From Bacillus sp. ISL-55 (GTDB lineage Bacteria; Bacillota; Bacilli; Bacillales; Cytobacillaceae): DNA of 59,097 bases. Position numbers and translations under genes: made by a program. Under the pieces are notes generated by a model. The model saw only the letters and a program-made list of their open reading frames with translations. It searched no databases and was not told where the DNA came from. Every line of letters starts with the position of its first letter. Position 1 is the stretch's first letter. This document shows positions 19,649-58,170 of the stretch, piece by piece. Location: the NCBI RefSeq assembly GCF_018613155.1, contig NZ_JAGGQU010000004.1:1-59097 (forward strand), in the 5' to 3' direction.

Positions 19649-19750
19649 CAACCGTTGATAAAACGAGGCTAGCCGTTGATAAAAACCCCTCAACCGTCGA
19701 TAAAACTTCTGCAACCGTTCAATTATTCGCTCCAACCGTTGATATAATTA
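19649..19750. repeat. Array 1: five units, 21-bp period, core CAACCGTTGATAAAA
   Basis: The word ACCGTTGATA or a variant starts at 19651, 19672, 19693, 19714 and 19735, an exact 21-bp step each time. Bases between cores are not conserved. No ribosome site or frame is associated. It lies between the VanZ terminator and the NERD gene. Confidence 0.85.
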
Positions 19751-19857
19751 AAAATTGTAAATCGTACAATAAAATTTCATATTAAAACCTTTATATCAGC
19801 AGGTATTTTTCTTGTAAATGAAGAATTGATTTAAAAACTAATAAGGAAGTGACCAAT

Positions 19858-20847
19858 TTGATTGAAAAAGAAAGGACATATCCCATTCGGCTACTCATGT
19901 ATGAGGCACTAATGGAAAGAATCATATCAAATCATCCTAAACTCGCATTAATCGAACAAGATTACAAAGCCTGGCGTGCTGGTTACAAAGGCGAACTGCA
20001 AACAGATTACCGTTTAAGCTTTTTACCTGAAAAAGGCTACCACATATTCCGGGATTTACGTCTTCAAGATGAGAAATGGCATTTTCAGATGGATACCCTC
20101 ATTTTAACTCTTCGTTATATCCTTCTAATTGAAACCAAAGCCTATGCAGGTACCCTTTTCTTTGAAAAACATTCCGAACAAATGATTCAAACAAAGGATG
20201 GTCAGGAAAAAGCTTATGACAATCCCATTAACCAGGCTCGAATGCAAGCCTGGCACTTGAAAAGATGGCTTAAGAACCACAAATTCAGTGTCCCGCCCAT
20301 ATACCATCTCGTAGCCATTAGCAATTCCTCTACGATTATTAAGGTGAGTGACCGGTCTCTAAATAACTTAATAGTTAAAGGGGATGTATTATTAAGTCGC
20401 GTTCTTCAGATCGACGATACCACTCCTAATCCATGTTTTACTGACAAAGACTTAAAAAAGATATCCAAGTCTCTTGTAAAAAGTCATTCTCCACACCACC
20501 CAGACCTTCTTAAACAATATTCCCTTACCCCCGACGATCTTCAAAAGGGTGTTCAATGCCCATCATGTTTATCATATGGCATGTATCGAAAAAAATGGAT
20601 TTGGCGCTGTCCTGTGTGTGAACATCAATCCAAAACGGCTCATCGTAAAACTGTAAAAGAATTTTTCCTCCTTATTAGTCCTACTATTAAAAACCAGATG
20701 TGTAGAGAGTTTTGCCCAGGTGTATCCTCCAAGACTATCAAAGACCTTTTAATATCTTTGAACCTACCCCACACGGGCACCAACAAAGGCCGCATCTACC
20801 ACATGCCACCAGACATCGAAGCATTCTTCAATCCCGCGAAAAAGTAA
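19858..20847 (+). CDS. NERD nuclease-related domain protein with zinc ribbon
   Basis: A 329-residue protein. The N-terminal half carries a NERD domain (about 45-160): GYKGELQTDYRLSFL, then the MDTLILTLRYILLIETKAY core with the D and E-x-K residues of nuclease-like folds. A four-cysteine zinc ribbon follows at about 225-252 (CPSC and CPVC pairs). A basic C-terminal region completes it. NERD proteins are sporadic and are thought to act on DNA or RNA; none has a well-fixed role. TTG at 19858 is chosen because AAGGAAGTG lies 6 bases upstream; an in-frame GTG at 19849 overlaps that site. Base composition is visibly more AT-rich than its neighbours, and the gene interrupts the spoIIQ-spoIID region, consistent with transfer. 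Confidence 0.8.
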   Translation: MIEKERTYPIRLLMYEALMERIISNHPKLALIEQDYKAWRAGYKGELQTDYRLSFLPEKGYHIFRDLRLQDEKWHFQMDTLILTLRYILLIETKAYAGTLFFEKHSEQMIQTKDGQEKAYDNPINQARMQAWHLKRWLKNHKFSVPPIYHLVAISNSSTIIKVSDRSLNNLIVKGDVLLSRVLQIDDTTPNPCFTDKDLKKISKSLVKSHSPHHPDLLKQYSLTPDDLQKGVQCPSCLSYGMYRKKWIWRCPVCEHQSKTAHRKTVKEFFLLISPTIKNQMCREFCPGVSSKTIKDLLISLNLPHTGTNKGRIYHMPPDIEAFFNPAKK

Positions 20848-20911
20848 AAGTTCACCTGTCATACTTCATCCGCGAAGATTTTAATAGTCAAAACGCCACA
20901 CCAATCCGCGC

Positions 20912-20940
20912 TAAAAAGCCAGGGTGCTTTTCACCCTGGC
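20912..20940 (-). terminator. spoIID terminator
   Basis: GCCAGGGTG and CACCCTGGC form a perfect 9-bp stem with a 5-base loop. TTTTTAG follows on the minus strand. Confidence 0.85.
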
Positions 20941-20956
20941 CTCGTCATTATCTCTT

Positions 20957-21985
20957 TTATTTCTTCGCAGTAACCTTCGTCAGCATGCTATCGGCCTCGC
21001 TGATCTCGACGCCTTTATAATAGTGCTTGACGATGTCCTGGTAGGTCTTCCCTTCGGTGGCCATGCCGTTGGCTCCGTATTGGCTCATGCCGACGCCGTG
21101 GCCGAAGCCTTCGGTGGTGATGACGACATTGCTGCCTTTGAGCTCCCAGGTGAAGTCGCTGGAGCGGAGTTTTAGCTTCTCACGTACTTCCTTCCCTGTG
21201 AGGACTTTGCCGCCTATATCGATTTTTGCAACGCGGTTGCCTGATGTTCTTGAGATTACTTTGCCAATCTCCGAGGTGTTCGGCAGCTTGACACCAAGCT
21301 TTGACTCCACCTCAGCAACCGTCATCACCGTTTGACTTCTGAACTTAGGTGACTCGAGATCCCACGGGCTTTCTACACTGCGCAAATACGGCAGCGAGTT
21401 TGACCAGTATTCCTCTGAGTTTTCGGTGAAGCCATTCGATGTCGAGAAGAAGGTCGCATCGATCGGGGTGCCATCATATGTAAGCACCTGGCCATCCGTT
21501 GCTTTGACCGCTTCAGCAATCTTCTTGACCTTCCATTTGTAGTCGACGCCCCACTGCTTTTTCAATTCTTCTTTATTTTTAAAAACCTGGTGAATTTCTG
21601 TATCATTCAACTGGGCGCCTTCAGGTACGCCTACTTTATTTGGGCTCAGCATTTGTTTTACATAATAAGTCCTTGCCGACAGTGCCTGCGCCTTCAATGC
21701 CTCCAGTTCGAACTCAGCGGGCATTTCAGCAGCGACGACACCGATCAGGTATTCATCAAGCGGAAGCTTCTCTGTCTTGGACAACGCTGTCCGGTAAACG
21801 GCTACCTCAACAGCCGAGTCTGCGGTTGGAACCGCGGCGACATCCTTTGCCTCACTTTGCAGCTCTTCCCCCAGTTTTCCGCCTGCCTTATCTTCCATAA
21901 AAGGGAGGACGAGCAAGGATGGGATCAGGAGTGTGACAGCGAATAGAATTGCAGCTAGTACGATGAGTGGTTTGAATTTAAACAT
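20957..21985 (-). CDS. spoIID: Stage II sporulation protein D, lytic transglycosylase
   Basis: A 342-residue membrane-anchored enzyme that cleaves glycan strands between the forespore and mother cell during engulfment, in the DMP complex with SpoIIM and SpoIIP. A single N-terminal membrane segment (about 6-28) is followed by the SpoIID/LytB domain. The conserved VVAAEMPAEFELEALKAQALSARTYY block carries the catalytic Glu region, and GFGHGVGMSQYGANGMA lies near the C-terminus. ATG at 21985 is chosen because GGAGG lies 8 bases upstream; an in-frame start five codons earlier overlaps that site. It lies between murA and the NERD gene, as in B. subtilis apart from the NERD insertion. A sigma-E-like promoter precedes it. 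Confidence 0.95.
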   Translation of the reverse strand: MFKFKPLIVLAAILFAVTLLIPSLLVLPFMEDKAGGKLGEELQSEAKDVAAVPTADSAVEVAVYRTALSKTEKLPLDEYLIGVVAAEMPAEFELEALKAQALSARTYYVKQMLSPNKVGVPEGAQLNDTEIHQVFKNKEELKKQWGVDYKWKVKKIAEAVKATDGQVLTYDGTPIDATFFSTSNGFTENSEEYWSNSLPYLRSVESPWDLESPKFRSQTVMTVAEVESKLGVKLPNTSEIGKVISRTSGNRVAKIDIGGKVLTGKEVREKLKLRSSDFTWELKGSNVVITTEGFGHGVGMSQYGANGMATEGKTYQDIVKHYYKGVEISEADSMLTKVTAKK

Positions 21986-22035
21986 AGAAAAAGCCTCCAT
22001 TATGAAATTAATCCGGTCGAAAACCGTCTCATTTC

Positions 22036-22064
22036 ATTCATATGGAGGCGGACAAGCTTTTATG
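22036..22064 (-). promoter_or_regulatory. Sigma-E-like promoter of spoIID
   Basis: On the minus strand TCATAAA (22058-22064) and CATATGAA are separated by 14 bp, close to the mother-cell pattern with ATA at -35 and CATA at -10. spoIID is a sigma-E gene in B. subtilis. Confidence 0.55.
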
Positions 22065-22174
22065 ACAGAAATCGAAAATGCATATTGTTCTGTCGAAAGT
22101 CTCATAATAAGTCGGGCAAAACTAATTCACGAAATTGGACAAAATTTTTCGGGCTCAATCCGCCCGCTTAACAT

Positions 22175-22217
22175 CAAAAAACCGCAGAACTATACGTTAA
22201 AGCACAATTCTCCGGTT
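22175..22217 (-). terminator. Possible murA terminator
   Basis: On the minus strand AACCGGAGAA and TTCTGCGGTT pair imperfectly around a long loop, followed by TTTTTTGATG. The stem is weak. Confidence 0.45.
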
Positions 22218-22233
22218 CATTGAGTAGTAATAT

Positions 22234-23541
22234 TTATGCGTTCATGTCTGAGACTAATTGATCAGTTACTGGCTGTTCTTCTACTTCGCTGACGCGTTCG
22301 ATGTCTGCGCCAAGTGCTGCTAGCTTCTGATGGAAGTTCACATAACCGCGATCCAGGTGATACAGTTCTGTAACGCGAGTCATTCCATCTGCTACAAGTC
22401 CAGTCAGGATCAGTGATGCTGCGGCACGCAAATCAGTTGCTGCCACTTCTGCTCCCTGAAGGTTTGATGGTCCGTTCATGATGACAGAGCGGCCATCGAT
22501 TTTGATGTTTGCGTTCATGCGGCGGAATTCTTCCACGTGCATGAAGCGGTTTTCGAAAACAGTTTCGGTGATCATGCTTGTGCCCTGAGCGCGCAATAGC
22601 AATGCCATCATTTGGGATTGCATATCTGTCGGGAAGCCAGGGTGCGGCATTGTCTTGATGTCAACTGCCTTCAATTTTTCAGGCCCGATGACACGAAGGC
22701 CGTCTTCTTCTTCAATGATGGTAACGCCCATTTCTTCCATCTTCGCTACCAATGAAGAAAGGTGTTCAGGTACAGCGCCTTTTACAAGGACGTTTCCGCC
22801 AGTGATGGCAGACGCAACCATGAAGGTTCCTGCTTCGATTCGGTCAGGAATGATGTTGTGGTCTGCACCAAACAGTACTTCCACACCTTCGATCTTGATT
22901 GTGCCAGTGCCGGCGCCTTTTACCTTCGCTCCCATTTTGTTCAGGAAGTTGGCAAGGTCGACGATTTCTGGTTCTTTTGCGACGTTTTCGATGACTGTTG
23001 TTCCTTTTGCAAGGACTGCCGCCATCATGATGTTTTCCGTAGCACCTACGCTAGGGAAATCAAGGTATATTTTAGCTCCGTGCAGACCACCGACTGCTTC
23101 GGCTTCGATAAAACCGTTTCCTACCTTTACTGTCGCACCCATTGCTTCAAAGCCTTTAAGGTGCTGGTCGATAGGACGGGAACCGATTGCGCAGCCGCCT
23201 GGCAATGCTACACGAGCACGGCCATTCCTGGCAAGCAGGGATCCCATTACTAATACAGAAGCACGCATTTTACGAACATACTCAAAAGGTGCTTCTATTT
23301 TTAACTCTCTGGATGCATCTACTGTAATTGTGTTATTTTCAAACTCCACTACGGCGTTTAAAGAACGTAATACTTCGTTGATGGTATATACATCGGAGAG
23401 AGTTGGCACATCACGAATTACGCTTTTTCCGTCACTTGCTAATAATGTTGCAGCGATAACAGGCAAGACGGCATTCTTAGCTCCTTCAACCTTTACAGAA
23501 CCGCTTAGCCTTTGTCCGCCGCGGACGATGATTTTTTCCAA
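22234..23541 (-). CDS. murA: UDP-N-acetylglucosamine 1-carboxyvinyltransferase
   Basis: A 435-residue enzyme that transfers enolpyruvate from phosphoenolpyruvate to UDP-GlcNAc, the first committed step of peptidoglycan synthesis, in the cytoplasm. The two inside-out alpha/beta domains are covered over the full family length. The active-site cysteine is C117 in [13 protein letters not shown], so the fosfomycin target residue is intact. Other family blocks are [17 protein letters not shown] near the start and [16 protein letters not shown]. It corresponds to murAA of B. subtilis, which lies in the same ywmB-murAA-spoIID order. It begins 32 bases after ywmB and is probably co-transcribed with it. 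Confidence 0.97.
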
Positions 23542-23573
23542 GTGTATTCCCCTCCGCGTCCAATTTCTCTATA

Positions 23574-24293
23574 TTAATATTCAATCGTTATGATGGGTGT
23601 GCCAACTACTAGGGTAGTCTTTGCGCCCAATCGATCAGTTTTCCGTAATCCAAGCTGCATATTCATCTCATGGTCATTGCTCAAAGAGTTGTCGAACAAA
23701 GGCGAAACGGCGGATGTGGAAATAAACGCTTCTTCTTCCAATCCTTCGACTTCCTCGGCTTGAAAAGCCTTTAGCAATTTAGTTTTATAAACAGGTAAAG
23801 CCGATTTTATCTTATCATTGATTTCGCCTTCAATACAAGAGAAAGTTGTGGCATTCCCTCGAAAAATGTCAAATAATCTGCCTGGTAAATTTTTGTTTAA
23901 AAAGGTTTCTGTATTTTTATTCCACTGCTGACCTCTGACCTCATACATCACATACGTATGTATCGGCCCGTTTGTGTCCGTAGAAACGATTTTAATTTTT
24001 TCCTGAATCTCAGAAGAATTCGAAACAGCGGTGAGTTCTCCATTGAGGTGGTTCCATGTCCAATCCGGGAGCTGGACCTTCAAGTTTTTTACCAAATCTT
24101 CGACATTTTCTTCTTCCAATGTTTCCCTTGCATATATAGACCAACCAGTGATCAAAATATTTTCGTCCTGCAAAACTGAGGCCAGAGTTTTTATTTCATG
24201 ATCAGCGTCAGCTACAGTCGTCTTATTCCCAGCTTGAAGCACTATAAAACCAATAATGCCAAAAATTGATAAAATAAATGGAATCTTCTTCAT
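23574..24293 (-). CDS. ywmB: YwmB family exported protein (DUF1779)
   Basis: A 239-residue protein with an N-terminal signal or anchor segment (KKIPFILSIFGIIGFIVLQ, about 2-20) and a mixed alpha/beta outer domain. It matches YwmB in size and in its place before murAA. YwmB belongs to DUF1779, whose structure is TATA-box-binding-like, and its function is unknown. ATG at 24293 is chosen because it starts the signal segment and GGGAGAG lies upstream; the open frame continues upstream without a ribosome site. One pair of features stands out: the WSIYARETLEEENVEDL block and the C-terminal VVGTPIITIEY. It is probably in one operon with murA. Confidence 0.85.
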   Translation of the reverse strand: MKKIPFILSIFGIIGFIVLQAGNKTTVADADHEIKTLASVLQDENILITGWSIYARETLEEENVEDLVKNLKVQLPDWTWNHLNGELTAVSNSSEIQEKIKIVSTDTNGPIHTYVMYEVRGQQWNKNTETFLNKNLPGRLFDIFRGNATTFSCIEGEINDKIKSALPVYKTKLLKAFQAEEVEGLEEEAFISTSAVSPLFDNSLSNDHEMNMQLGLRKTDRLGAKTTLVVGTPIITIEY

Positions 24294-24600
24294 ATGTCTT
24301 TCACTCTCCCTTATTACCATTCTTACCAGGAGAGCAAATCGCATACTTGGGAATTCTCGTCACTTTTTGACATTATTCTATGTACCAACTTTGCCGGGTG
24401 TTCATCGTTTGTGAAAAAATAAACATGCTAACGCAAAAAACAAGCACAAAAACAATAATACTCAAGTTTTCGCGTTTTGGGAACATGTATGAAGACCTAA
24501 TTTTTTACCAATTTGTTTAGAACTAACAGCAGATGGGCTAAAATTCCAGAAATCGGATCAAGTACAAAACTACCTTTGTTAAGTAAAAACCAATTAGGCC
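24294..24600. other. Intergenic region between ywzB and ywmB
   Basis: No gene supported; short frames here have no ribosome site. AT-rich sequence near 24400-24520 probably holds the ywmB-murA promoter on the minus strand, but no clear site was found. Confidence 0.4.
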
Positions 24601-24837
24601 TTACTGAAAAATCATCGGAAGCTGCTGTGACCATTGGAGGTAATCAAGGAAGAAATTACTTACTGTGGATCCCAGTGCGATGGAAGTTAGAATATATAAA
24701 ACTCGGGCTTGAAGCACATGGTTTGCCCGGAGCAGCTTATCAAATTGGAGTGCTTGAAGAGCCCACCATGAAACGGCGATAAATATAAGATGTGTCAGAA
24801 TGCTGGTCAGCGCAAAGCCGCCAAAACCTGTAATCAT
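24601..24837 (-). CDS. ywzB: YwzB family small membrane protein (DUF1146)
   Basis: A 78-residue protein with two membrane segments (about 8-28 and 45-62) separated by QFDKLLRANHVLQAR. It fits DUF1146, conserved small proteins of Bacillales encoded downstream of the atp operon; the role is unknown. AAGGGGGGA lies 6 bases before ATG. In B. subtilis ywzB follows atpC and precedes ywmB. Here the whole nuo operon lies between atpC and ywzB, but the ywzB-ywmB-murA order is kept. Confidence 0.88.
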   Translation of the reverse strand: MITGFGGFALTSILTHLIFIAVSWWALQALQFDKLLRANHVLQARVLYILTSIALGSTVSNFFLDYLQWSQQLPMIFQ

Positions 24838-25040
24838 AAACGGTCCCCCCTTACCATGTCTATTTTAACATAAACTAGATGATTACCTGTTATTTTAGAC
24901 GTTTCAGAAGACGGAAAGTTTCATGTGACCGAAAGTTCTCTTTCCACTAGCTCCTCTGGTATATGCTCTTCTCGCGTGTGATTTAATCTTTCCCGTTGCT
25001 ATTATCGCAAAAATCCTTCTATGCGATCTTTTCTCAATGG
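24838..25040. other. Intergenic region upstream of ywzB
   Basis: Holds the ywzB upstream region. A short minus-strand frame across it has no ribosome site and runs through the nuo terminator, so no gene is called. Confidence 0.4.
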
Positions 25041-25078
25041 CAAAAAAAAACTGGCCCGCTTTAAAAGCAAGGCCAGCT
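25041..25078 (-). terminator. Terminator of the nuo operon
   Basis: On the minus strand CTGGCC and GGCCAG, with an inner GCTT/AAGC, form a hairpin followed by nine T. It lies about 95 bases after the nuoN stop codon. Confidence 0.85.
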
Positions 25079-25171
25079 GAATTTACCCCTTTGTTTCCAT
25101 GAATTGATTTTCCCCAAAATCCATACATGATTCGAGCTTTGTTCTTACTTCTTAGTTAGCGAAGTGAAAAA

Positions 25172-26692: not shown

Positions 26693-26698
26693 CCTTCA

Positions 26699-30081: not shown

Positions 30082-30090
30082 TAATATCAC

Positions 30091-33631: not shown

Positions 33632-35026
33632 CTACACCTCCACATCATACGGTTCATAGTCTTTTCTTAACGGGTGGCCGACCCAGTCTTCACCAAGCAT
33701 GATGCGATGGAGGTTAGGATGGCCTTCGAATTTGATGCCAAGCAAGTCATACGTTTCACACTCTGGCCAATCTGCTCCTGCCCATAGCGGCTGGACGGAC
33801 TGAGTAACAGGCTGATCGCGGTCTAGCTTGACCTTTAACGCAACTGATTGTCGATTTTTGTATGAGTACAAGTGAACATACACTTCCATATGTGTCTGGA
33901 AATCCGTGCCGTGAAGTTCTGAAAGGTAATCAAAACCTAATCGTTCGTTGTACTTAAGGAATTCAGCCAGTCGGTAATAAGATTCCTTCTTCGCGACAAG
34001 AGTTGGAACATCCTTTGAAAGAGGGTTAATATAGGAATCTTCCAAAATATCATCACCAAGGTTGTCTGTAATCGTTTTTACATATTTATCTAAGTAAGGC
34101 TGGTTTGGAGACGGTTTTTTCTCTTCAACAGGCTCATCTGCTCCTGCTTTTGCGCCAGCTGCTGATTTAGCTTTCGCTGCTGCGGCTGCTTTTGCCTTTG
34201 CTGCGGCAATCGCTTTCGCTTTTTCGTCGTCTGCTGAGCCTCCGCCGGCTGCGGCTTTGGCTTTTGCTGCTGCAGCTGCCTTCGCTTTTGCTACGGCTGC
34301 GGCTTTCTTTTTCGCAAGATCATCGTCGTCGCCTGCTGAAGCGTCTGCTCCTCCGCCTGCCTCCTGAGCTTTCCTTTTTGCTGCCGCTGCTGCCTTTGCC
34401 TTCGCTACGGCCGCGGCTTTCTTTTTCGCAAGGTCATCATCGTCGCCTGCAGGAGCATCTGCCTCTCCGCCTGCTTCTGCCTGTGCTTTTCTTTTCGCTG
34501 CCGCTGCGGCCTTTGCTTTTGCTACGGCTGCGGCCTTCTTTTTCGCAAGATCATCATCGTCTCCCGCTGTAGCTTCAGTGGCTGCTGGAGTTTCCACTTC
34601 AGCGTTTTCCTCCACCTGGCCAGTTGCTTTCATTTTTGCAAGTGCGGCTGCTTTCGCTTTTGCTGCAGCTGCGGCTTTTTTCTTAGCTAACTCAGCGTCT
34701 TGACCTTCTACCGAAGCTGATACTTCTTCTTTGGCTTCAGGAGCTTCCTCTGTGGCCTGGCCATTCGCTTTCATTTTCGCCAGTGCAGCTGCCTTTGCCT
34801 TCGCTGCGGCGGCGGCTTTCTTTTTAGCGAGTTCAGCATCGTCACCTGCTGGTGCTTCTGCCTTTGCCTCGGTTTCCTTCACTTCAGGTTCTGCGACTTT
34901 GTCGGCAACCTCTTTCGGGTCGTTTCCTTCCCCTGCTTGTTTAGCGGCCTGACGCTGCTTCGCAAGCTCTTTTGCTTTTTGGGCTGCTTCTCTCTTTATC
35001 TGCTCTAAATCCTTTTCCCCGCTCAT
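33632..35026 (-). CDS. nuoC: NADH-quinone oxidoreductase subunit C with a ~300-residue Lys/Ala repeat extension
   Basis: A 464-residue protein. Residues from about 307 to the end form a normal NuoC (30-kDa) domain with [22 protein letters not shown] and the C-terminal [21 protein letters not shown] signature, which braces NuoD and NuoB in the peripheral arm. The N-terminal two thirds is low complexity. At least five units begin LAKKKAAA and continue as Ala/Lys helix, separated by acidic Gly/Ala linkers with DDD or DAE, and a sixth unit is degenerate. This part should form long charged helices and has no cofactor motif. E. coli-type NuoC lacks such an extension. ATG at 35026 has AAGGTG upstream, so the extension is translated. 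Confidence 0.93.
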
Positions 35027-36480: not shown

Positions 36481-36600
36481 TGTTTTATAGCGAAATTTTT
36501 ACTTTTATAGCGAAAATCTATTTTTAATAGCGAAAAATTGATTATTATAGCGAAAATTCATTTTTAATAGCGAAATCTTAGTTTTTATAGCGAAACGGAA
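36481..36600. repeat. Array 2: six units, 20-bp period, core TTATAGCGAAA
   Basis: ATAGCGAAA starts at 36487, 36507, 36527, 36547, 36567 and 36587, exactly 20 bp apart. The spacers are T/A-rich but vary. It lies between the atpC terminator and the nuo promoter region. The same core recurs in the array at 51790-51882. Confidence 0.88.
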
Positions 36601-36655: not shown

Positions 36656-36690
36656 ATAAAAACACCCTCCGGCGTCCCGGAGGGTGTTGA
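36656..36690 (-). terminator. Terminator of the atp operon
   Basis: ACACCCTCCGG and CCGGAGGGTGT form an 11-bp perfect stem, followed on the minus strand by TTTTTATTTTGG, directly after atpC. Confidence 0.9.
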
Positions 36691-46862: not shown

Positions 46863-46945
46863 GACGGAATCCCCCTTTTTTGAGTTAGCGTTTCAATTAG
46901 TGGCTGCTTATATACAGGGGTATTTTTTCCAAAAATAGGGTAAAG

Positions 46946-47018
46946 GTGCAATTATGTATAATGAGCGTGCAATTATTTGAGTTGAGTGTGCAATTATTAC
47001 TGAGTTCGGTGCAATTAT
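46946..47018. repeat. Array 3: four units, 21-bp period, core GTGCAATTAT
   Basis: GTGCAATTAT starts at 46946, 46967, 46988 and 47009, exactly 21 bp apart. The spacers share only traces of GAG or GTTGA. It lies 84 bases before the subtilase start codon and after wecB. No frame is maintained through it. Confidence 0.85.
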
Positions 47019-47146
47019 GGCATTTAAATGATTTGTATATTTTTCCAACTATCGTTCTGGTTAATTTTTTTTTAAGTATAAGCTGAAGACACGTTATCAG
47101 GCTGTTTCCTTCACCAGTGAAACTCTAACTGACCTTCCACTCGAAA

Positions 47147-48332: not shown

Positions 48333-48344
48333 CTCAAACACTCC

Positions 48345-49142: not shown

Positions 49143-49154
49143 CGGGTAACAATC

Positions 49155-50396: not shown

Positions 50397-50569
50397 TTAA
50401 GTTCCCCCTCTTATATGTATTCCCTTGTTCATTTATTAGAAAATTCATTCTTATTTTAGCCGATATTATAATGAAAGAAAAGGAGGAAGGAAAAAGTAGA
50501 CCTGAATATCAGGCATGTGCTTTCCTTCATTACCTTCCCCTTGTCAGCAAAACCTAGTCCTTAACTCTG

Positions 50570-51136: not shown

Positions 51137-51184
51137 TTATAACGCCTCCATTACATTGGTATTTTAATTTGGGAGTGCTCTGGA

Positions 51185-51625
51185 TTATTTATTTTCATAC
51201 TCCTTGATTTTACCGACGCGGTTTTCGTGGCGGCCGCCTTCATATTCCTCTGAAAGCCATACTGCTGCTATTTCACGCGCCAGTCCCGGTCCGATGACAC
51301 GTTCGCCCATCGCAAGGACATTGCTGTCATTATGCTGGCGCGTCGCCTTCGCGCTGAATACGTCATGCACAAGCGCGCAGCGAATTCCTTTTACCTTGTT
51401 CGCGGCGATGCTCATGCCAATTCCCGTACCGCAAATCAAAATACCCTTATCAAACTCTCCGTTCGCCACTTTCTCAGCAACCGGAAGTGCATAGTCAGGA
51501 TAATCAACAGATGTACCGCATTCGCAGCCGAAATCTTCGTACTGGATATTCATTTCGTCCATCAAACTCTTAATTTCTTCGCGGATATTGACTCCGCCAT
51601 GGTCTGAAGCAATAGCAACTTTCAT
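51185..51625 (-). CDS. rpiB: Ribose-5-phosphate isomerase B
   Basis: A 146-residue sugar-phosphate isomerase of the RpiB/LacAB family that interconverts ribose 5-phosphate and ribulose 5-phosphate in the pentose phosphate pathway. The family start is IASDHGGVNIREEI. The active-site cysteine lies in LICGTGIGMSIAANKV, and HNDSNVLAMGERVIG follows. It corresponds to YwlF of B. subtilis. AGGAGG precedes ATG. Downstream are ywlG and glyA. Confidence 0.94.
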   Translation of the reverse strand: MKVAIASDHGGVNIREEIKSLMDEMNIQYEDFGCECGTSVDYPDYALPVAEKVANGEFDKGILICGTGIGMSIAANKVKGIRCALVHDVFSAKATRQHNDSNVLAMGERVIGPGLAREIAAVWLSEEYEGGRHENRVGKIKEYENK

Positions 51626-51789
51626 TGTAAAATCCTCCTATGTAATCCCGGCATGCGGGGCGATCAAATCTATCGTTATTTTCTCATATTCGTACGGAAT
51701 TATAAAGAAATCGGGTTGGTTAGCACTGATATTTTAGATGTTCATCACTAAAATCAGATCAGAGAAAAATAGTATCTGCAAAATAGCCT

Positions 51790-51882
51790 TTTTATAGCCA
51801 GTTTTCATTTTTATATCGACTTTTTCGTTTTTATAGCGATTTTTTGATTTTTATAGCGAAATTTTGATTTTTATAGCGAATT
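51790..51882. repeat. Array 4: five units, ~20-bp period, core TTTTTATAGCGA
   Basis: ATAGCGA or a variant starts at 51794, 51813, 51833, 51853 and 51873, giving steps of 19, 20, 20 and 20. Later units share GATTTTTATAGCGA exactly. The core is the same as in the array at 36481-36600. It lies between the chemoreceptor terminator and the rpiB start, in the gap 51626-51949, which otherwise shows no gene. Confidence 0.85.
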
Positions 51883-51910
51883 GGAAATTCTGCCGTATTT
51901 TTTCCAGTTA

Positions 51911-51942
51911 CAAAAAAAACCACAGCATCATTCAGCTGTGGT
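51911..51942 (-). terminator. Terminator of the chemoreceptor gene
   Basis: ACCACAGC and GCTGTGGT pair perfectly with a 7-base loop, followed by eight T on the minus strand. Confidence 0.9.
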
Positions 51943-51949
51943 CCAACAA

Positions 51950-53245
51950 TTATAACGAAAACTTCGTGATCGTCCCTTTTAATTTTTCCGCCTGATTCTT
52001 GAGTTCTACCGCTAACTCTTCGACATTCGCGATGACCTCTGCCTGCTGTTCAGCTGCTGATGCTACGCTGATCGCTCCGGCGGATGTTTCTTCTGCGATT
52101 GCCGCCATTTCCTGTGATTGAGTCGATGTGTGCTGGATTGTTTCCATTTGTGTTTCGACAAGGGCGGCGATTGTATGGATGACGTCAGCCATCTCATGAA
52201 TCGTTGAGGTCATCGCGTCGATCACCTGGTTCGTTTTCTCGCCTTTTTTTGCTTCTCCGTTCGCTGTTTCAACCTGTCTGCTGATCTGGCCGACAACATT
52301 CTGAACTTCAGACTGGATGTTCTGGATCAGTTCAGAAATGCCCTGGACCGCGTCCGCACTCTGGTCAGCAAGCTTCCTCACTTCTTCGGCAACGACAGCA
52401 AATCCTTTTCCGTGCTCACCAGCTCTTGCTGCTTCAATCGATGCGTTCAAGGCGAGCAAATTCGTCTGTGCCGCGATATCACCAACGAGCTGGATGATTT
52501 GTTCTACTTTTGTCGCGTTTTCTTCCAATCGTTTTACCGTCCCAAGCGATTCTCGATTATCATTTGCCAGTGTCTCGATACCGGAAATCAGTGAATGAAT
52601 GGCATTCTTCGATTCTTGCAAGTCTTTGACCATTTCCACTGAAATCGATTCAGATGTCCGCGCTTTTTCCTGGACATCCTCGGCAATCCGAATAACTTCA
52701 TCGACAGACTCAGCTGTTGTTTGTGTAGATAATGCCGATGAATCCGCCCCAGCGGCAATCTCTCTAATCGTTGTCGAGATGATCGACGCCTGCTCAGATG
52801 CTGCGGCAGATTGTCCGGAAATTTGGATGACTTTTTCATTTGTTTCTTTGAAATTGCTATCAATCTGGCTGACCATTTCACGCAGGTTTGCGAGCATATT
52901 ATTGAAAGCCAGTCCCAAAGAACGAATCTCGTCATCCGATTTCGAAACTTCCGCATCCTCGGCAATTTCACCATTCGCTGCTTTTATTGCAGACTGCTCG
53001 AGCTTTTGCAACGGCTTAATAATCAAACCGGCGGCCATATACGCAAGCAGGCCTGACCAGAAAATCCCCATAGCTAGAACTGCTGCCGTATAAACGACCG
53101 AATTGATTGCCAAGAAATTTTGAACAAAAGGATACAGGAAATAAATAAAAAATGCGCTTGTTGAATAAGTGATGATCGCCAACACAGTTGTCAGCATGAC
53201 CATTTTCTTTCTTAATCCCATTTTGTAGCTGCGTTTAGACCCCAC
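51950..53245 (-). CDS. Methyl-accepting chemotaxis protein with minimal outer domain
   Basis: A 431-residue chemoreceptor. Two membrane segments (about 15-37 and 44-68) are joined by only a few outer residues, so there is no large ligand domain. A HAMP linker follows (about 70-120), then the cytoplasmic signalling domain. The highly conserved hairpin tip has [31 protein letters not shown] (given in parts), which binds CheA and CheW. It may sense a membrane or cytoplasmic signal. GTG at 53245 is chosen because AGGGGG lies 7 bases upstream; the upstream open frame lacks hydrophobic or conserved sequence. It lies 97 bases after ywlE. Confidence 0.9.
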
Positions 53246-53341
53246 TGATAATCCCCCTGAAAAAATATTAGAATGACGTTTTAGCATCATTGCGCTCTTT
53301 GGACCGATTGCGCTCACTCCAAAAAGAATTTCTCAAAGGTA

Positions 53342-53779
53342 TTATCGGATTTTATCTATGATTCTTTCGATACTTTTTTGAATTTCTTTAAAAGCTTCGC
53401 GATAAATTTGTTCATTGCCGCCAAATGGATCTGCCACATCAAGGTTTCCCGTTTCATCAGCAAATTCTTTTAACGTGAAAATTTTATCAGCCGCGAATGG
53501 ATACTGATTCATGATCAAGCCTTTATGACTCTGTGTCATCGTCAAAACTAAAGTTGCCCAGTCGATGTTTTCCCTTGTTAATGTCGAGGAGCGATGATCA
53601 TGGCTGATATTGTTTTCCTCGAGCACGGTCTTCGCGTTGACCGAAGCTTCCGCGCCATTCGGAGCATATACTCCAGCCGATTTCACCTCAACTCCAGGCA
53701 GCTGCTTGCTTTTTAAAATCGCTTCCGCCATCGGGCTTCGACATGTATTTCCGGTACAGACAAATAAGATGCGCGCCAT
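53342..53779 (-). CDS. ywlE: Protein arginine phosphatase YwlE-type
   Basis: A 145-residue low-molecular-weight phosphatase. The P-loop is C8-TGNTCRS, with Cys8 as nucleophile and Arg14 binding phosphate. The general acid is in DVADPFGG near 116-120. Thr12 in the loop is the residue that makes YwlE prefer phosphoarginine over phosphotyrosine, so it should reverse McsB-type arginine phosphorylation, which tags proteins for ClpCP. GGAGGG precedes ATG. The order mntP, ywlE, rpiB follows B. subtilis, apart from the inserted chemoreceptor gene. Confidence 0.93.
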   Translation of the reverse strand: MARILFVCTGNTCRSPMAEAILKSKQLPGVEVKSAGVYAPNGAEASVNAKTVLEENNISHDHRSSTLTRENIDWATLVLTMTQSHKGLIMNQYPFAADKIFTLKEFADETGNLDVADPFGGNEQIYREAFKEIQKSIERIIDKIR

Positions 53780-53845
53780 GCTTGTCCCTCCTGTGAATCA
53801 CTTTTCTACATTATAAGATAATCCTTCAACAATTTCATTTCCGCT

Positions 53846-53870
53846 AAAAAAATACACCTGAAGAGCAGGT
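53846..53870 (-). terminator. Second of two tandem terminators after mntP
   Basis: ACCTG and CAGGT hairpin with loop AAGAG, preceded on the plus strand by seven A. It is similar to the next hairpin upstream, so one may be a duplicate of the other. Confidence 0.65.
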
Positions 53871-53885
53871 ACATACAATTTTTAT

Positions 53886-53912
53886 AAAAAAAACACACCT
53901 GACAAGCAGGTG
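53886..53912 (-). terminator. First terminator after mntP
   Basis: On the minus strand CACCTG and CAGGTG form a stem with a 5-base loop, followed by TGTTTTTTTTATA, 12 bases after the mntP stop. Confidence 0.8.
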
Positions 53913-53923
53913 CATGAGAAATG

Positions 53924-54478
53924 TTATAGAGGAAGAAGCAATTTCAGCCCGAAAGCGAGCAAAATGCTGCCACCTAATGCCTCACTGTATGTACCAAGCC
54001 AACCCTGCACTCTTTTTCCAACCAGGAGGCCTGCCCACGTAAGGACCATTGCCGCTGCACCAAAACAGATCAGTACAAGCAGCGTCCTTGCGCCGTAGAT
54101 GCCAAGTGTCAGTCCTACTGAAAAACTGTCAAGGCTGACGCTGAGGGCAAAAATAAATAAACCCTTGCCAACCGGGGTAATCACGCTTGTCTCATCTTCC
54201 TTGAAGCTTGCCCAGATCATCTGGACACCCAGCACGATCAAGAGCAGGCCGCCAATATATCCAGCGATGGCCCCGAACTGCTCGGACAAAAATCTCCCAG
54301 CCACCATTCCAAGCAGCGGCATCCACACATGGAACAAACCAATCGTGACGCCGATTTTAAATATATGCCTTTTCGTCAGTCTGAACATGCCCATTCCGAG
54401 TCCAACGGAAAAAGCATCCATTCCCAACGCGAATGCCATCAACATAAGTGTGAATAATTCGCCGGCTATTGCTGTCAT
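53924..54478 (-). CDS. mntP: Manganese efflux pump MntP
   Basis: A 184-residue membrane exporter with six membrane segments arranged as two inverted three-helix repeats. Each repeat starts with the metal-site motif: [12 protein letters not shown] near 17-28 and [12 protein letters not shown] near 115-126. It removes excess manganese from the cytoplasm. It corresponds to YwlD of B. subtilis, between ywlC and ywlE. AGGGGGC lies before ATG. In many bacteria mntP is under an Mn riboswitch; I looked upstream and saw no such structure. Confidence 0.93.
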
Positions 54479-54580
54479 GTCTTCGCCCCCTCGGACTTGC
54501 TAATTCAGCATATGCACGTCCAAAAGGATTTAGAAGCAGGGAATTTCAGATGCGAAATATTAAAGCACCGTTTGCCATAC

Positions 54581-54607
54581 AAAAAGCGCTCCATAACTGA
54601 AGCGCTT
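54581..54607 (-). terminator. ywlC terminator
   Basis: AAGCGCT and AGCGCTT form a perfect stem followed by TTTTTG on the minus strand, 10 bases after the ywlC stop. Confidence 0.8.
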
Positions 54608-54617
54608 CTCACATGTC

Positions 54618-55661
54618 TTATTTTTCAATGATCGGCAGTCCTGAAGCCTTGGAAAGCCGGTTCATGATTGCCTGGCCTACGCCTGTTTCGGGAAATATTT
54701 CTCCGAAAATGATATCGAGCTCTTCCTGATTGAACGCCCGGAGTGTATCATAGAGCGCTTCGGCGACTGTTTCGAGTTTTGCTCTTGCGCCACATGGTAT
54801 CACAATATCAGCATCATAAAACTCAAGATTTTCCTTCGTTGTCATCACGCCGACTTTCAGGCCTTCTCTTCGCTTTTCATTCACAAGCTGCTGGATTTCT
54901 TCTCTCGTTCCATCCACAAGATAAAACGGTGCATTTGGTGCATAGTGACGATATTTCATCCCAGGGGATTTTGGGGCCTGACTGGAATCTTTCAGGGCTG
55001 GATCGACGGCGACTTCACCGACTACTTCTTCCAGCTGTTCCTTTGTTACGCCGCCCGGTCTTAAAATCGCAGGAATGTCACCGGTGCAATCGACAACGGT
55101 TGATTCAAGTCCTACTCCGGTCGCTCCACCATCAACAATCCCGGAAATCCTGCCCGTCAAATCATCGGCAACGTGCTTCGCAGTCGTCGGGCTCGGCTTG
55201 CCTGAAAGATTTGCACTTGGGGCTGCCAGCGGCAAACCGGATGCTTCGATAATCGCCAGTGCGATTGGATGGTCGGGCATCCTGACGGCAACTGTGGATA
55301 ACCCGGCAGTTGCTTTTTCAGAAAGCGCCCCCTCTTTTTTTTCGAGGATAATCGTCAACGGTCCCGGCCAAAAGGCATCCATTAAAACCGCTGCCTGATC
55401 AGGGATTTCTTTTACAAAGGAGTGAATCTGCTCACGATTTGCAATATGCACGATCAACGGGTTATCCCCAGGTCTTCCTTTTGCTTCGAATATTTTCAAG
55501 ACGGCTTCATCGCTTTCTGCGTTGCCGCCGAGGCCATAAACCGTTTCTGTCGGAAAAGCTACTACTTCATTTTGCTTCAGCTTTTGTGCAGCTTCGGTGA
55601 TTTGTGGATATGTTTTTAAATTATCCACATTCTTATCCACTGCCCACATTTGTGTTTGCAT
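54618..55661 (-). CDS. ywlC: L-threonylcarbamoyladenylate synthase (YwlC/Sua5)
   Basis: A 347-residue enzyme that makes threonylcarbamoyl-AMP from threonine, bicarbonate and ATP, the first step of t6A37 tRNA modification. The N-terminal YrdC domain (about 15-205) includes VVAFPTETVYGLGGNA, KGRPGDNPLIVHI and the LAAPSANLSGKPSPT block. A Sua5-specific C-terminal domain (about 230-345) follows, so it is the long Sua5 type rather than short TsaC. AAAGGTGG precedes ATG. Two DnaA-box-like sites lie within its first 14 codons, part of a cluster that continues upstream. Confidence 0.94.
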   Translation of the reverse strand: MQTQMWAVDKNVDNLKTYPQITEAAQKLKQNEVVAFPTETVYGLGGNAESDEAVLKIFEAKGRPGDNPLIVHIANREQIHSFVKEIPDQAAVLMDAFWPGPLTIILEKKEGALSEKATAGLSTVAVRMPDHPIALAIIEASGLPLAAPSANLSGKPSPTTAKHVADDLTGRISGIVDGGATGVGLESTVVDCTGDIPAILRPGGVTKEQLEEVVGEVAVDPALKDSSQAPKSPGMKYRHYAPNAPFYLVDGTREEIQQLVNEKRREGLKVGVMTTKENLEFYDADIVIPCGARAKLETVAEALYDTLRAFNQEELDIIFGEIFPETGVGQAIMNRLSKASGLPIIEK

Positions 55662-55840
55662 TTACATCCACCTTTTATTTCTGGCTAAACTAATATATTT
55701 CTATGAAAGTATAAAAGAAGAATCATGCGAACACAAGTTTTTATCCACAAATTGTGTATAATTTTAATGAAACCGTGGATAACTTTGTGGATTAATCCAC
55801 AATTTACAGAATTATTTTCATAATTGCGGAGTTATCCACA
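55621..55840. promoter_or_regulatory. DnaA-box cluster at ywlC-ywlB
   Basis: Eight sites match TTATNCACA with at most one mismatch: plus strand 55621, 55633, 55741, 55793 and 55832; minus strand 55753-55761, 55774-55782 and 55786-55794. Those at 55621, 55741, 55753 and 55832 are perfect. Three pairs are spaced exactly 12 bp. The ywlC upstream region is one of the known DnaA-box clusters of B. subtilis outside oriC, so this one appears conserved. Confidence 0.8.
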
Positions 55841-56247
55841 GTCAGAACTTGTTTTAAATGACTTTTTTCAAGAAGAGAATCCGGAAGCTCTGACTGGTTT
55901 ACCATTTCAAAACCAAGGCTGCCGAAGAAGGAAACTGCGCTCATCTTGTTTGTAACCAGATATAGTTCTTCAAGCTCCTGGTTTTTCGCTGTCAGGAATG
56001 CCCGTTTAAAAAGAAGCATCAAATCAGGCTGGCCAATTTGCGGGGAAACGACAAATGAGCGAAGCAGTCCTGCTCGATCCACCGGTTCTACTCCAAGGCA
56101 TGCCTTAAGCTCGCCGTCCTGGTTTTCCATCAGCGAAAAGTTTTTGATAGAATCACTCAATCCTTCCGTGCTTACTCCTGCTTCTGTTAAAAAAGCCTCC
56201 AGTTTTGGCAGATCCCCTTGCTTCGCACTTCTGATTTTCCATGTCAT
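55804..56247 (-). CDS. ywlB: GNAT family acetyltransferase, YwlB-like
   Basis: A 147-residue protein with a GNAT-like fold: WKIRSAKQGDLPKLEAFL at the start, an AGLLRSFVVSP strand and a FFGSLGFEMVN block close to motif B. The acetyl-CoA P-loop (Q/RxxGxG/A) is poorly kept (SPQIGQPDLM), so binding may differ. It corresponds to YwlB of B. subtilis in place and size. ATG at 56247 is chosen because GAGGTG lies 6 bases upstream; a GTG three codons earlier overlaps that site. Its 3' end contains a perfect DnaA box (55832). Substrate unknown. Confidence 0.8.
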   Translation of the reverse strand: MTWKIRSAKQGDLPKLEAFLTEAGVSTEGLSDSIKNFSLMENQDGELKACLGVEPVDRAGLLRSFVVSPQIGQPDLMLLFKRAFLTAKNQELEELYLVTNKMSAVSFFGSLGFEMVNQSELPDSLLEKSHLKQVLTVDNSAIMKIIL

Positions 56248-56322
56248 ATTATTCACCTCAAAAATAAGATTCTACTAAATGAATATGATAGAAGATAAAA
56301 AGTAGAACCTTCTTCTTGATAG

Positions 56323-56510
56323 AACGCTGTTTTCGTAAAGATTGTTGTTAAAATCCTAAAGCCGATTTTAACGTTATAAAAAGCCATTTTGCAGGTCGGT
56401 ACTAAGTTTGCATGCTCTTTTCTCATAAAAAGAGTTAACTTTTACGAAAAAAATAGGTCTTGAAATCCTATTTAGTATTCAAAAGCAACAAAGTTTGAGA
56501 AAAGAGCCTT
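56323..56510 (-). repeat. ~186-bp dispersed structured element, copy B
   Basis: Reverse-complement match to 13317-13502. On the minus strand it reads GGCTCTTTTCTCA first and ends near AACAGCG. Both internal stems are kept, and the diverged middle has the same length (57 bases). It lies downstream of the KGG-repeat gene, after its terminator, and upstream of ywlB. The remaining bases of 56248-56322 show nothing else. Confidence 0.8.
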
Positions 56511-56523
56511 ATAGAAAAAGAAA

Positions 56524-56558
56524 ACACGGCCGCCTTCATTTAAATGAAAGCTGCCGTG
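56524..56558 (-). terminator. Terminator of the KGG-repeat gene
   Basis: On the minus strand CACGGCAGCTTTC and GAAGGCGGCCGTG pair with mismatches around an ATTTAAAT loop, followed by TTTTCTTTTTC. Confidence 0.75.
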
Positions 56559-56589
56559 CCTCTTTTAGATCCTGGCTTTCTAAGCCATA

Positions 56590-56976
56590 TTAGTTGTTAT
56601 TGTTGTTGCGGGCATTGCCGCCTTTTTCGCCGATTTCTTCATAGAAGCTTCGGTCATGGTTTTCAGAAGTCGCTTCTCCGCCTTTGCGGCCGATCTCCTG
56701 ATAGAAGTCCTTGTCGTGGCTTTCTGATGTTGCCTCGCCACCTTTTTTCCCGATTTCCTGGTAGAATTCGCTGTCATGGCTCTCAGCAGTAGCCTCTCCG
56801 CCTTTGCGGCCAATTTCCTGATAGAAATCTTGATCGTGATTGTTGGAAGTTGCTTCGCCGCCTTTACGGCCGATTTCCTGATAGAATTCGCTGCCATGGT
56901 TCTCGCTTGTTGCTTCGCCGCCCATGCGTCCTCGTTCTTCACGTGACATCTTATCATTGTTATTGTTTTTAGCCAT
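56590..56976 (-). CDS. KGG-repeat stress protein, GsiB-like
   Basis: A 128-residue hydrophilic protein. About five repeats of ~20 residues run from residue 11 to 118, each with FYQEIGRKGGEA followed by a short S/N/H/D stretch. The first and last units are variants (RGRMGGEA and EEIGEKGGNA). Asn tracts cap both ends. KGG-repeat proteins such as GsiB of B. subtilis are made under general stress and resemble plant LEA proteins. No membrane or catalytic motif is present. GGAGGATG precedes ATG. No clear sigma-B site was found upstream. Confidence 0.88.
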   Translation of the reverse strand: MAKNNNNDKMSREERGRMGGEATSENHGSEFYQEIGRKGGEATSNNHDQDFYQEIGRKGGEATAESHDSEFYQEIGKKGGEATSESHDKDFYQEIGRKGGEATSENHDRSFYEEIGEKGGNARNNNNN

Positions 56977-57195
56977 TATTACTCATCCTCCTTGAAATCT
57001 AAGTTTTGATGTTACACTACACTAAATATCCGGATTCTCGTCACCCGAAACTATTATCAAGTGAATGTAATCTGCTTGTTCGAATAATGTAATATTTTTG
57101 GAAATTCTGACGGTCGTTTTTCCTCCTTTACCAAGTATTTCTTTTTAAAAGCTAGCTAATGTTTCCTAGCTTCTCATAGTAAAAATTTATAAGTG
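56977..57195. other. Divergent intergenic region between the KGG-repeat gene and the globin gene
   Basis: Upstream DNA for both genes. No additional gene is supported. The right end merges into the globin promoter. Confidence 0.4.
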
Positions 57196-57211
57196 AGTGA
57201 TATAAGTCACT
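57196..57211 (+). promoter_or_regulatory. FNR/CRP-type operator
   Basis: AGTGATATAAGTCACT is a near-perfect palindrome with the core GTGA-6-TCAC. It differs by one base from the reported B. subtilis Fnr consensus TGTGA-6-TCACT. Its centre (57203.5) lies 41.5 bases before a start expected at 57245, the usual place for activation. Confidence 0.7.
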
Positions 57212-57232
57212 ATGTCAGTCATTTAGTCTGGT

Positions 57233-57238
57233 TATAAT
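57233..57238 (+). promoter_or_regulatory. -10 of the globin promoter
   Basis: A perfect TATAAT without a recognisable -35 at 16-18 bp, where the FNR-type site lies instead. That is the pattern of an activator-dependent promoter. Confidence 0.65.
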
Positions 57239-57281
57239 AAACTTAATCAATTGAAAACCTTTCTCAAAAAGGGGGAACGGC

Positions 57282-57659
57282 ATGGAAATAAAAACAATAT
57301 ACGAAAAGATCGGCGGAGATGAATCAATCCGGAAGATCGTAGATACTTTTTATCCAAAGGTTTACGAAAACGAGGAGCTCAGCCCATTGTTCGAAGGTGA
57401 TATAGATGAAATCAAGCGGAAGCAGTGGATGTTCCTCACGCAGCTGACCGGCGGCGGTGCGCTTTACAGCGAAGAGTTCGGACCGCCTAATATGAGAGTG
57501 AGACATATGCCATTCGAAATCTCGCCGGTGCGCGCGAAAGCATGGCTGAAGCTGATGCACGAAACACTTACGGAAACAGGATTAATTGAAACTGAGGGTG
57601 GAAAGGCGCTGTTCGAGCGATTGAGCCAGATCGCACCCATTATGATTAACAGACAATAA
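57282..57659 (+). CDS. Group II truncated hemoglobin, YjbI-like
   Basis: A 125-residue heme protein with the 2-over-2 globin fold. The proximal ligand is His75 in RVRHMPFEIS. Tyr24 is at B10 (DTFYPKVY), and Trp88 in AKAWLKLM is the G8 residue typical of group II. Such globins bind oxygen tightly and deal with oxidants or nitric oxide in the cytoplasm. AGGGGGAAC precedes ATG. It is the first gene of a two-gene operon, 10 bases before the cupin gene. The FNR-type promoter suggests induction at low oxygen. In B. subtilis yjbI lies elsewhere, beside yjbH. Confidence 0.92.
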   Translation: MEIKTIYEKIGGDESIRKIVDTFYPKVYENEELSPLFEGDIDEIKRKQWMFLTQLTGGGALYSEEFGPPNMRVRHMPFEISPVRAKAWLKLMHETLTETGLIETEGGKALFERLSQIAPIMINRQ

Positions 57660-57669
57660 GGAGGAATTT

Positions 57670-58014
57670 ATGATGGAAAAACAGTCATTAACACAATACC
57701 AGGAATTCAGCGAGGAACGGTTTACTAAGAGGATTGTCTTCAAAAAAGGGGAAAGCACAGTGTTTTTGCTGAACTTCATGCCCGGCCAGGAGCTGCCAAA
57801 GCACACGCATCCAGGTACTGAAGTGTTCATTTTAACGATGCAGGGTGAAGGTACTTTTACCATTGATGGCGAACAAGTAGCAGCTGTATCGAACGAAACC
57901 GTCCATTTGAGCGGTACAGAAGAACTTGCCTATAAAAACACCGGAGCAGAGCCAGTCACACTTTATGTCATGCTCAACAAGATTCCTGATGAGAGATTTG
58001 CGCAGAATATTTAA
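57670..58014 (+). CDS. Small cupin-fold protein
   Basis: A 114-residue single-domain cupin. Motif 1 is seen as PGQELPKHTHPGTEVFIL, with metal ligands His45, His47 and probably Glu51. Motif 2 (around NETVHLSGTEELAYKN) has one His. The fold should hold a metal, but the substrate cannot be told. GGAGG lies 6 bases before ATG; a second ATG follows directly. It is co-transcribed with the globin gene, so a role in redox or nitrogen-oxide response is possible. It is separated from convergent spoIIR by an array and a terminator. Confidence 0.85.
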   Translation: MMEKQSLTQYQEFSEERFTKRIVFKKGESTVFLLNFMPGQELPKHTHPGTEVFILTMQGEGTFTIDGEQVAAVSNETVHLSGTEELAYKNTGAEPVTLYVMLNKIPDERFAQNI

Positions 58015-58050
58015 TCTCAGGTAGAGCTTAATCATAGTGGGTAAACACCA

Positions 58051-58170
58051 GTTGGTCGAATTATCCTTAAAAGTGGTCGAATAAATTCTAAAAGTGGTCG
58101 AATAATTAAAAAATCCGCCAAATTAATTCAGACTGTGGTCGATATATTTGGAAAATCGCCAATATATTTG
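58051..58170. repeat. Array 5: about six units, ~21-bp period, cores TGGTCGAATAAT and CGCCAAATTAAT
   Basis: GGTCGA starts at 58054, 58075, 58096 and 58137. A second word, CGCCAA followed by A/T-rich bases, fills the missing place near 58116 and the next near 58157. Steps are 21, 21, ~20, ~21 and ~20. Two core words alternate in the second half. It lies between the convergent cupin and spoIIR genes. Confidence 0.78.

Follow-up and report, generated by a model that had tools for sequence, protein, structure and literature searches.

The 59,097-nt window analysed here (the whole of contig NZ_JAGGQU010000004.1 of Bacillus sp. ISL-55, contig 44 of a 4.52-Mb genome) carries five intergenic arrays in which a short word is repeated directly every 20 or 21 bp, and arrays with the same geometry recur elsewhere in the genome, in its relatives and in other families of the order. 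The genes present, among them spoIIR, atp and nuo genes, are in keeping with a spore-forming bacillus. The arrays mostly occupy the same gaps in different species while their words differ, the cores of the repeats are kept while the spacers drift, and at one locus the change of word is the replacement of a whole segment of the gap. We consider it about an even bet that these are helically phased protein-binding arrays acting at the DNA level, perhaps as boundaries at gene ends. The arrays of the window and the structures beside them are:

19584–19616 (+): terminator-like hairpin of the VanZ-like gene, upstream of array B, from sequence and terminator test
19649–19750 (+): array B, five copies of CAACCGTTGATAAAA with period 21, between the VanZ-like gene (+) and a NERD-domain gene (+)
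36483–36596 (+): array A1, six copies of TTTTATAGCGAAA with period 20, between nuoA (−) and atpC (−)
36656–36687 (−): terminator-like hairpin of atpC, between atpC and array A1
46945–47019 (+): array D1, four copies of GTGCAATTAT with period 21, between a subtilase gene (−) and a UDP-GlcNAc 2-epimerase gene (−)
51787–51882 (+): array A1, five copies of TTTTTATAGCGA with steps of 19, 20, 20 and 20, between rpiB (−) and a methyl-accepting chemotaxis gene (−)
51880–51908: terminal inverted repeat ATTGGAAA...TTTCCAGT, half-site starts 21 bp apart, directly after the last A1 core
51910–51942 (−): terminator-like hairpin of the chemotaxis gene
58052–58163 (+): array C, copies of TGGTCGAATAAT at 21 bp with related CGCCAA words between the last copies, in the gap where a cupin gene (+) and spoIIR (−) converge
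58188–58217: terminator-like hairpin between array C and spoIIR; seen from the cupin gene, array C comes before this hairpin

The arrays had been reported in a first-pass annotation of the window, and a de novo scan (8-mers, at most one mismatch, at least three copies) recovered all five at the reported places, with steps of 21 (four times), 20 (five times), 21 (three times), 19/20/20/20 and 21 (twice). In array C, at 58051, an additional copy lies 42 bp further on, with related CGCCAA words visible by eye in between. When 16 single lags between 12 and 30 were tested across the window, the only matches outside the arrays were coding repeats at 34.1–34.3 kb (lags 12, 21 and 24); a 9-mer scan added a weak three-copy match at 19575, within a terminator, a looser scan added another at 53850, and Markov shuffles of the window gave a single match in one of ten shuffles. 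The words do differ, as the annotation had claimed, but they number four rather than five: CAACCGTTGATAAA in B, TATAGCGA in both A1 arrays, GTGCAATTAT in D1 and TGGTCGAATAAT in C. Similarly, the supposedly strict period is almost always 20 or 21, but the TATAGCGA arrays step by 20 (once by 19) and not by 21, and the spacers described as unconserved do drift, except that T-runs precede the A1 core and TTCAC marks most 21-bp steps of TTTATTGGCGA arrays. The suggestion that each protein has its own word was too strong, because TATAGCGA is reused at 21 loci of the genome.

Beyond the window, intergenic DNA shows a clear excess at these periods. In a 459-kb sample of the same genome, whose contigs C3, C5 and C16 were chosen among those with TATAGCGA matches so that array density is biased upwards, 17 intergenic arrays with at least three copies were found at lag 20/21, 14 of them with at least four; counted by single lag, nine arrays occurred at lag 20 and seven at lag 21, against a single array at 46 other lags combined, with the multiples 40–42 and a separate 52/53-bp class excluded. 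Evenly spaced stretches of a second genome, G005, amounting to 400 kb, held 10 arrays at either copy threshold, while order-2 shuffled non-ORF (open reading frame) DNA held none. Extrapolation gives 140–170 arrays per genome from the first sample, with its upward bias, and about 115 from G005, and we therefore estimate roughly 100–170.

Spaced pairs of TATAGCGA number 86 at its 21 loci in the source genome (backward control, 0), and triples occur in 18 of 21 genomes of the genus, with 7–89 in each, being absent from G012, G017 and the incomplete G010. Among 397 genomes drawn from the order, four-copy TATAGCGA arrays were found in 10, all of the source genus; the backward control gave five matches in G138 and one in G168, which belong to other families of the order and where the matches may represent arrays with a different word. 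When named genomes were scanned, Mesobacillus accounted for 25 of the 54 stretches with six-copy TATAGCGA arrays, the remainder being from Bacillus sp. ISL strains, Cytobacillus, Neobacillus, 'Chryseobacterium', Bacillus niameyensis and Bacillus sp. FJAT-50079. A word-free scan detected 20/21-bp arrays built on different words both within the family, where 8 of 20 stretches representing other genera held 12 arrays, and beyond it, where 10 of 20 stretches representing other families of the order held 20 arrays; one of these 20, TATCCACA in f41, resembles DnaA boxes. As each stretch was 20 kb, an array-free stretch says little about its genome. Five genomes from outside the order (100 kb together) and 200 kb of E. 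coli K-12 yielded none. At 22 loci from outside the genus, an array with another word lay beyond atpC in three, and a fourth had an array elsewhere.

All five gaps of the window are 200–790 bp long and hold at least one gene 3' end according to the ORF map, and none is a tight operon gap, which agrees with the earlier observation that the arrays lie between transcription units and never within an operon. Across the two genome samples (gaps of at least 150 bp, lags 19–22, at least three copies, a few chance matches included), arrays were present in 0 of 76 divergent gaps versus 30 of 242 co-directional or convergent gaps (p 0.0002), and in the syntenic stretches of relatives, which are not independent, in 1 of 26 versus 58 of 177. 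A terminator-like hairpin stood between the stop codon and the array at 29 of 37 3' ends, and the arrays are therefore mostly outside the upstream transcript. Folding gave no RNA signal on either strand of 17 arrays (z-scores −2.0 to 1.9, with 1 of 34 reaching −2.0), and no Rfam match was found in the window.

These positions are mostly kept between species while the words change, as a comparison of five orthologous gaps (counts including the source genome) demonstrates; the check that the annotation had proposed, a constant position with a changed core, thus gave a positive result. An array was detected in the VanZ–NERD gap of 15 of 16 genomes, with variants of the word; in the nuoA–atpC gap of 16 of 17, nine with TATAGCGA (A1) and seven with TTTATTGGCGA (A2); in 10 of 11 comparable S8–mnaA gaps, with GTGCAATTA-like words or ATTCCGCGAAA, the count being limited to 11 genomes because no mnaA ortholog was found in the rest, several of which have visible arrays there; in the rpiB–MCP (methyl-accepting chemotaxis protein) gap of 14 of 18, with TATAGCGA or, in three genomes, reversed TGGTCGATATA-like words; and in the spoIIR gap of 12 of 16. 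Inspection by eye revealed diverged arrays in the VanZ, nuoA and S8 gaps that the search had missed, in two of the four missed at rpiB, where G017 was not comparable, and in one of the four missed at spoIIR. On a tree of 16 concatenated proteins the words changed at least seven, five and four times at nuoA–atpC, S8–mnaA and rpiB–MCP, respectively, about as often as shuffled labels (means 6.4, 5.6 and 3.9); labels, among them a single 'other' and a single 'none' (G012), were set by hand, the tree has some weak branches, and coverage of G017 is 55%. In the VanZ–NERD gap of G012 (L118 17860–18902) the array has grown to about 50 copies that span 1 kb, and its steps vary between 19 and 21.

At nuoA–atpC, the only locus so examined, the change of word can be followed in the alignment. 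The array region of G005 (A2) is 0.78–0.92 identical to that of four other A2 genomes but only 0.46–0.49 identical to that of its sister G009 (A1), and in the 300 columns to the left of the array G005 still resembles G003 (0.65–0.81) more than G009 (0.21–0.25), with some A2 genomes not close there. Nearer nuoA the sister G009 is again the closer one, and the flanking genes are 0.85–1.00 identical to all. G014 (A2) follows the same pattern, grouping with G008 against its sister G011. The word change at this locus is thus the exchange of a gap segment of several hundred bases, most simply, we infer, by recombination through the conserved flanks, and the words would act as interchangeable alleles. 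Local rewriting of cores, the other mechanism that the annotation had entertained, finds no support at the loci tested: here the word change accompanies replacement of several hundred gap columns, and between G000 and G020 the spacers have been inherited copy by copy.

Comparison of the A1 core with eight spacer bases in orthologous copies suggests that the copies are inherited in order and that selection keeps the cores. At nuoA–atpC (7 of the 9 A1 genomes) the core differed at 0 of 735 positions and the spacer at 405 of 840 (0.48 per site); at rpiB–MCP (9 of 13) the figures were 30 of 1106 and 621 of 1264 (0.49 per site). Between G000 and G020 the spacers of the same copy were 0.75 identical and those of other copies 0.46, with core differences at 0 of 35. 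Among 449 distinct A1 units with at most one core mismatch, seven core bases were 97–100% fixed, with T-runs ahead of the core. In 58 arrays the median number of conserved positions was 12 of 22, and only two consensus cores contained a 6-bp palindrome, so the sites are directional; many words consist of a G/C-bearing stretch followed by an A/T stretch. In A2 arrays, most distinct 21-bp steps contained TTCAC (16 of 20), whereas none of the 34 distinct 20-bp steps did. The A-type arrays are closed by TTGGAAA...TTTCCAA, with at least six of eight pairs in 90 of 112 A1/A2 tails versus 44 of 112 with shuffled right parts, and the half-sites were 21 bp apart in 71 of the 90 paired tails.

The steps follow the helix. 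In a search that allowed steps of 19–22, 451 of 462 steps in 103 arrays were 20 or 21, and across 33 word classes the mean step fell with rising A/T-tract content (Spearman −0.50, p 0.003) and with rising A+T (Spearman −0.60, p 0.0002), such that tract-rich arrays step nearer 20 and mixed-sequence arrays nearer 21. A-tract DNA has about 10.0–10.1 bp per turn and mixed DNA 10.5; steps of 20 and of 21 bp would therefore both hold the cores on one face. A 10.5-bp harmonic, considered as a general signal of wrapping, appeared only as a weak G/C rise in A1, and in neither B nor D1.

Fixed, non-palindromic words at a two-turn spacing point to protein units arranged head to tail on one face of the DNA. 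Each word, with its roughly 12 conserved positions in a 22-bp window, would be the binding site of a single unit of a sequence-specific protein, and neighbouring units, at a distance of two turns, could assemble over about 70–135 bp, with the terminal inverted repeat of the A type perhaps nucleating or capping the assembly through its half-sites 21 bp apart. Because arrays lie mostly beyond terminators in gaps with a gene 3' end, such an assembly would most likely be a boundary between transcription units, that is, a roadblock to read-through, to antisense transcription or to the spread of supercoils. Several words, presumably with several reader proteins, coexist in one genome and can replace one another at a given place, and alleles with different words may move between species, most simply by recombination via the conserved flanking genes. 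The annotation's proposal of DNA-bound proteins with different words agrees with the kept cores, the drifting spacers, the helix-tracking steps and the lack of an RNA-fold signal, while binding itself is what we infer from them.

Several observations weigh against this reading. It would require many reader proteins, and no reader of the arrays was found in the sequence analysis. One of the 26 divergent gaps in the relatives' syntenic stretches does carry an array, and the link to terminators is partly background, as 169 of 286 of all 3' ends have a terminator-like hairpin within 200 bp. By eye, no array is present in 3 of 16 spoIIR gaps (G014, G012 and G017) or in 1 of 18 rpiB gaps (G012). Some arrays with few A/T tracts nevertheless step by 20 (GGATCGTA, TAAGGGCG), and several of the 33 word classes are variants of a single word. 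With regard to the cores, the A1 chain search retains only copies that lie exactly 20 bp apart with at most two mismatches, which makes the cores look less diverged, and over seven genomes same-copy spacers are only a little more alike (0.52) than other copies (0.46). At rpiB–MCP the contrast fails in the pair G008–G011 (core 1/35, spacer 1/40), and in G007–G006 (core 2/35, spacer 15/40) spacers of the same index are less alike (0.63) than others (0.71), perhaps through a shifted index.

Other explanations account for parts of the pattern. The array with its terminal inverted repeat could be a small, non-autonomous mobile element whose insertions fall beyond terminators and whose enzyme recognises the cores: A1 and A2 arrays are polar and share the tail, likeness between loci of the source genome stops there by eye, and one word occupies 21 loci. 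Such an element would explain the shared tail and the reuse of a word but not the conserved places, and it sits poorly with the constrained cores, with the replaced gap segment (rather than a precise insertion) at nuoA–atpC and with the B, C and D arrays, which by eye lack an A-type tail; we consider it unlikely. The sole IS21 transposase gene in the genome has no array at the standard setting in its 3.7-kb locus, truncated by the end of the contig (other transposases were not searched for), and IS21 ends were rejected as a source; three 3-copy matches with other words appear there at a much looser setting. It is likewise improbable, to a similar degree, that a general DNA-wrapping protein such as gyrase or an HU-like protein wraps or bends DNA at the arrays, by analogy with BIMEs (bacterial interspersed mosaic elements) and gyrase, in which case words would matter through shape alone. 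The helical period, the location in 3' gaps, the interchangeable words, spans of 69–134 bp in 24 arrays and the G/C rise one turn past the A1 core would suit gyrase-type wrapping, which accounts for period and place but not for fixed words: shape alone would neither fix the A1 core (0/735) nor reuse one word at 21 loci, and the B and D1 units lack a clear 10.5-bp alternation.

That each array is an ordinary operator cluster for a regulator of the adjacent gene appears quite unlikely. Direct repeats bound by LytTR regulators have a 20–22-bp period (PMC6193735), the B1 word resembles the LytTR consensus, and several arrays lie about 100 bp ahead of the start of the downstream gene; however, arrays avoid divergent promoter–promoter gaps, the same word adjoins unrelated genes, and words switch while neighbouring genes stay. 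LytTR domains number only 1–4 per genome in 21 genomes, fewer than the words and too few for LytTR proteins to be general readers. A role as processed or structured RNA is very improbable. In the terminal inverted repeat, two arms of the same tail do form more pairs (7.12 of 8) than swapped arms (mean 6.28, highest 6.53), in 90 tails picked for at least six pairs, a choice that favours own over swapped arms, but neither the fold z-scores nor Rfam give a signal, and arrays are mostly beyond terminators. Neutral satellites arising by slippage are hardly credible at all: some arrays have indeed expanded (the roughly 50 copies in G012, 21 in G004), but one period prevails across the genus and in 8 of 20 other-genus and 10 of 20 other-family stretches, cores are kept while spacers drift, and places are kept. 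A variable number tandem repeat would copy the whole unit, spacers included, whereas A1 spacers are near saturation and their cores fixed.

Known repeat classes resemble the arrays in part. Plasmid iterons are direct repeats with a conserved core and a variable remainder, a period of about 21–22 bp that hardly varies and a system-specific word. The arrays are likewise direct repeats near 21 bp with a conserved core, but they are chromosomal, number about a hundred or more per genome and lie beyond terminators; their neighbours include atp, nuo and further core genes, the 18 ORFs scanned of the window's 54 contained no Rep family, and a search for plasmid relatives gave only three short matches (E-values 0.05–0.6). 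BIME/REP (repetitive extragenic palindrome) elements are built of palindromic units of 20–40 bp. Like the arrays they are intergenic and occur in many copies near 3' ends, and roles in supercoiling and termination have been proposed for them (see also PMC3733652). The arrays differ in being non-palindromic (2 of 58 cores with a 6-bp palindrome), helically phased and many-worded.

The nearest described class found is that of the Staphylococcus STAR elements (PMC3532100), which are intergenic direct repeats with a conserved core, locus-specific spacers and variable copy number, as here. They fail on period, word and conservation of place: their single 14-bp GC-rich core, T(G/A/T)TGTTG(G/T)GGCCC(C/A), is separated by at least 40 bp in repeats of about 50 nt, whereas the arrays have many words at 20/21 bp, and STAR locations are not conserved between species (PMC3532100), whereas the same gaps hold arrays across species here (15/16, 16/17, 10/11, 14/18 and 12/16). 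LytTR-family operators match in period, with 9-bp direct repeats and 11–13-bp spacers (20–22 bp), but are described as pairs in promoters (PMC6193735), whereas the arrays mostly comprise 4–7 repeats of unrelated words beyond gene ends. BIME/REP elements, iterons, IS21 ends and slippage repeats each fail at least one tested feature. In agreement with the annotation, full-text searches of open-access literature, which leave out most subscription journals, turned up no described class with the same period and behaviour, nor a described reader or role.

A second class of intergenic arrays, with a period of 52/53 bp or about five helical turns, was observed 11 times in the 459 kb and nine times in the 400 kb of G005. 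In the eight arrays inspected, most units contain an inverted repeat and the words vary by array (such as TTCGGACA..TGTCCGAA, TTGACAG..CTGTCA). Seven places in the source genome are:

C3: 57481–57709, 97413–97851
C5: 30754–31268, 43237–43954, 60595–60943, 133864–134233
C16: 87909–88278

In addition, Bacillus niameyensis (L204 5175–5488) and Bacillus sp. FJAT-50079 (L202 906–1271) carry 16 and 18 near-perfect 20-bp tandem copies with TCGCTAT, the reverse of the A1 word. Within the window, 114-bp repeats at 34239–34573 lie in the coding sequence of a NuoC-like protein (33632–35026, −), giving it a repetitive N-terminal part, and an ORF at 56590–56976 has 60-bp repeats; an overlapping frame (56580–56957) had no Pfam match, the ORF's own frame lying outside that scan. 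The large protein encoded at 294–4919, with FHA and FtsK/SpoIIIE domains, is one we take to be probably EssC of a type VII secretion system.

The arrays may, more broadly, represent an order-wide boundary system of bacilli, in which phased arrays mark the far side of terminators, a diversified family of head-to-tail DNA-binding proteins reads them, and the words are alleles of interchangeable function, exchanged between species while the places stay fixed; we offer this wider proposal tentatively, as possible but on balance doubtful. The arrays occur at about 100 or more chromosomal positions in each genome, and their one geometry is shared by many families of an order whose members include much-studied bacteria. 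If the arrays are a boundary system, they would provide a direct handle on how these bacteria separate adjacent transcription units, as well as a natural example of DNA words that can be exchanged for one another at fixed places.

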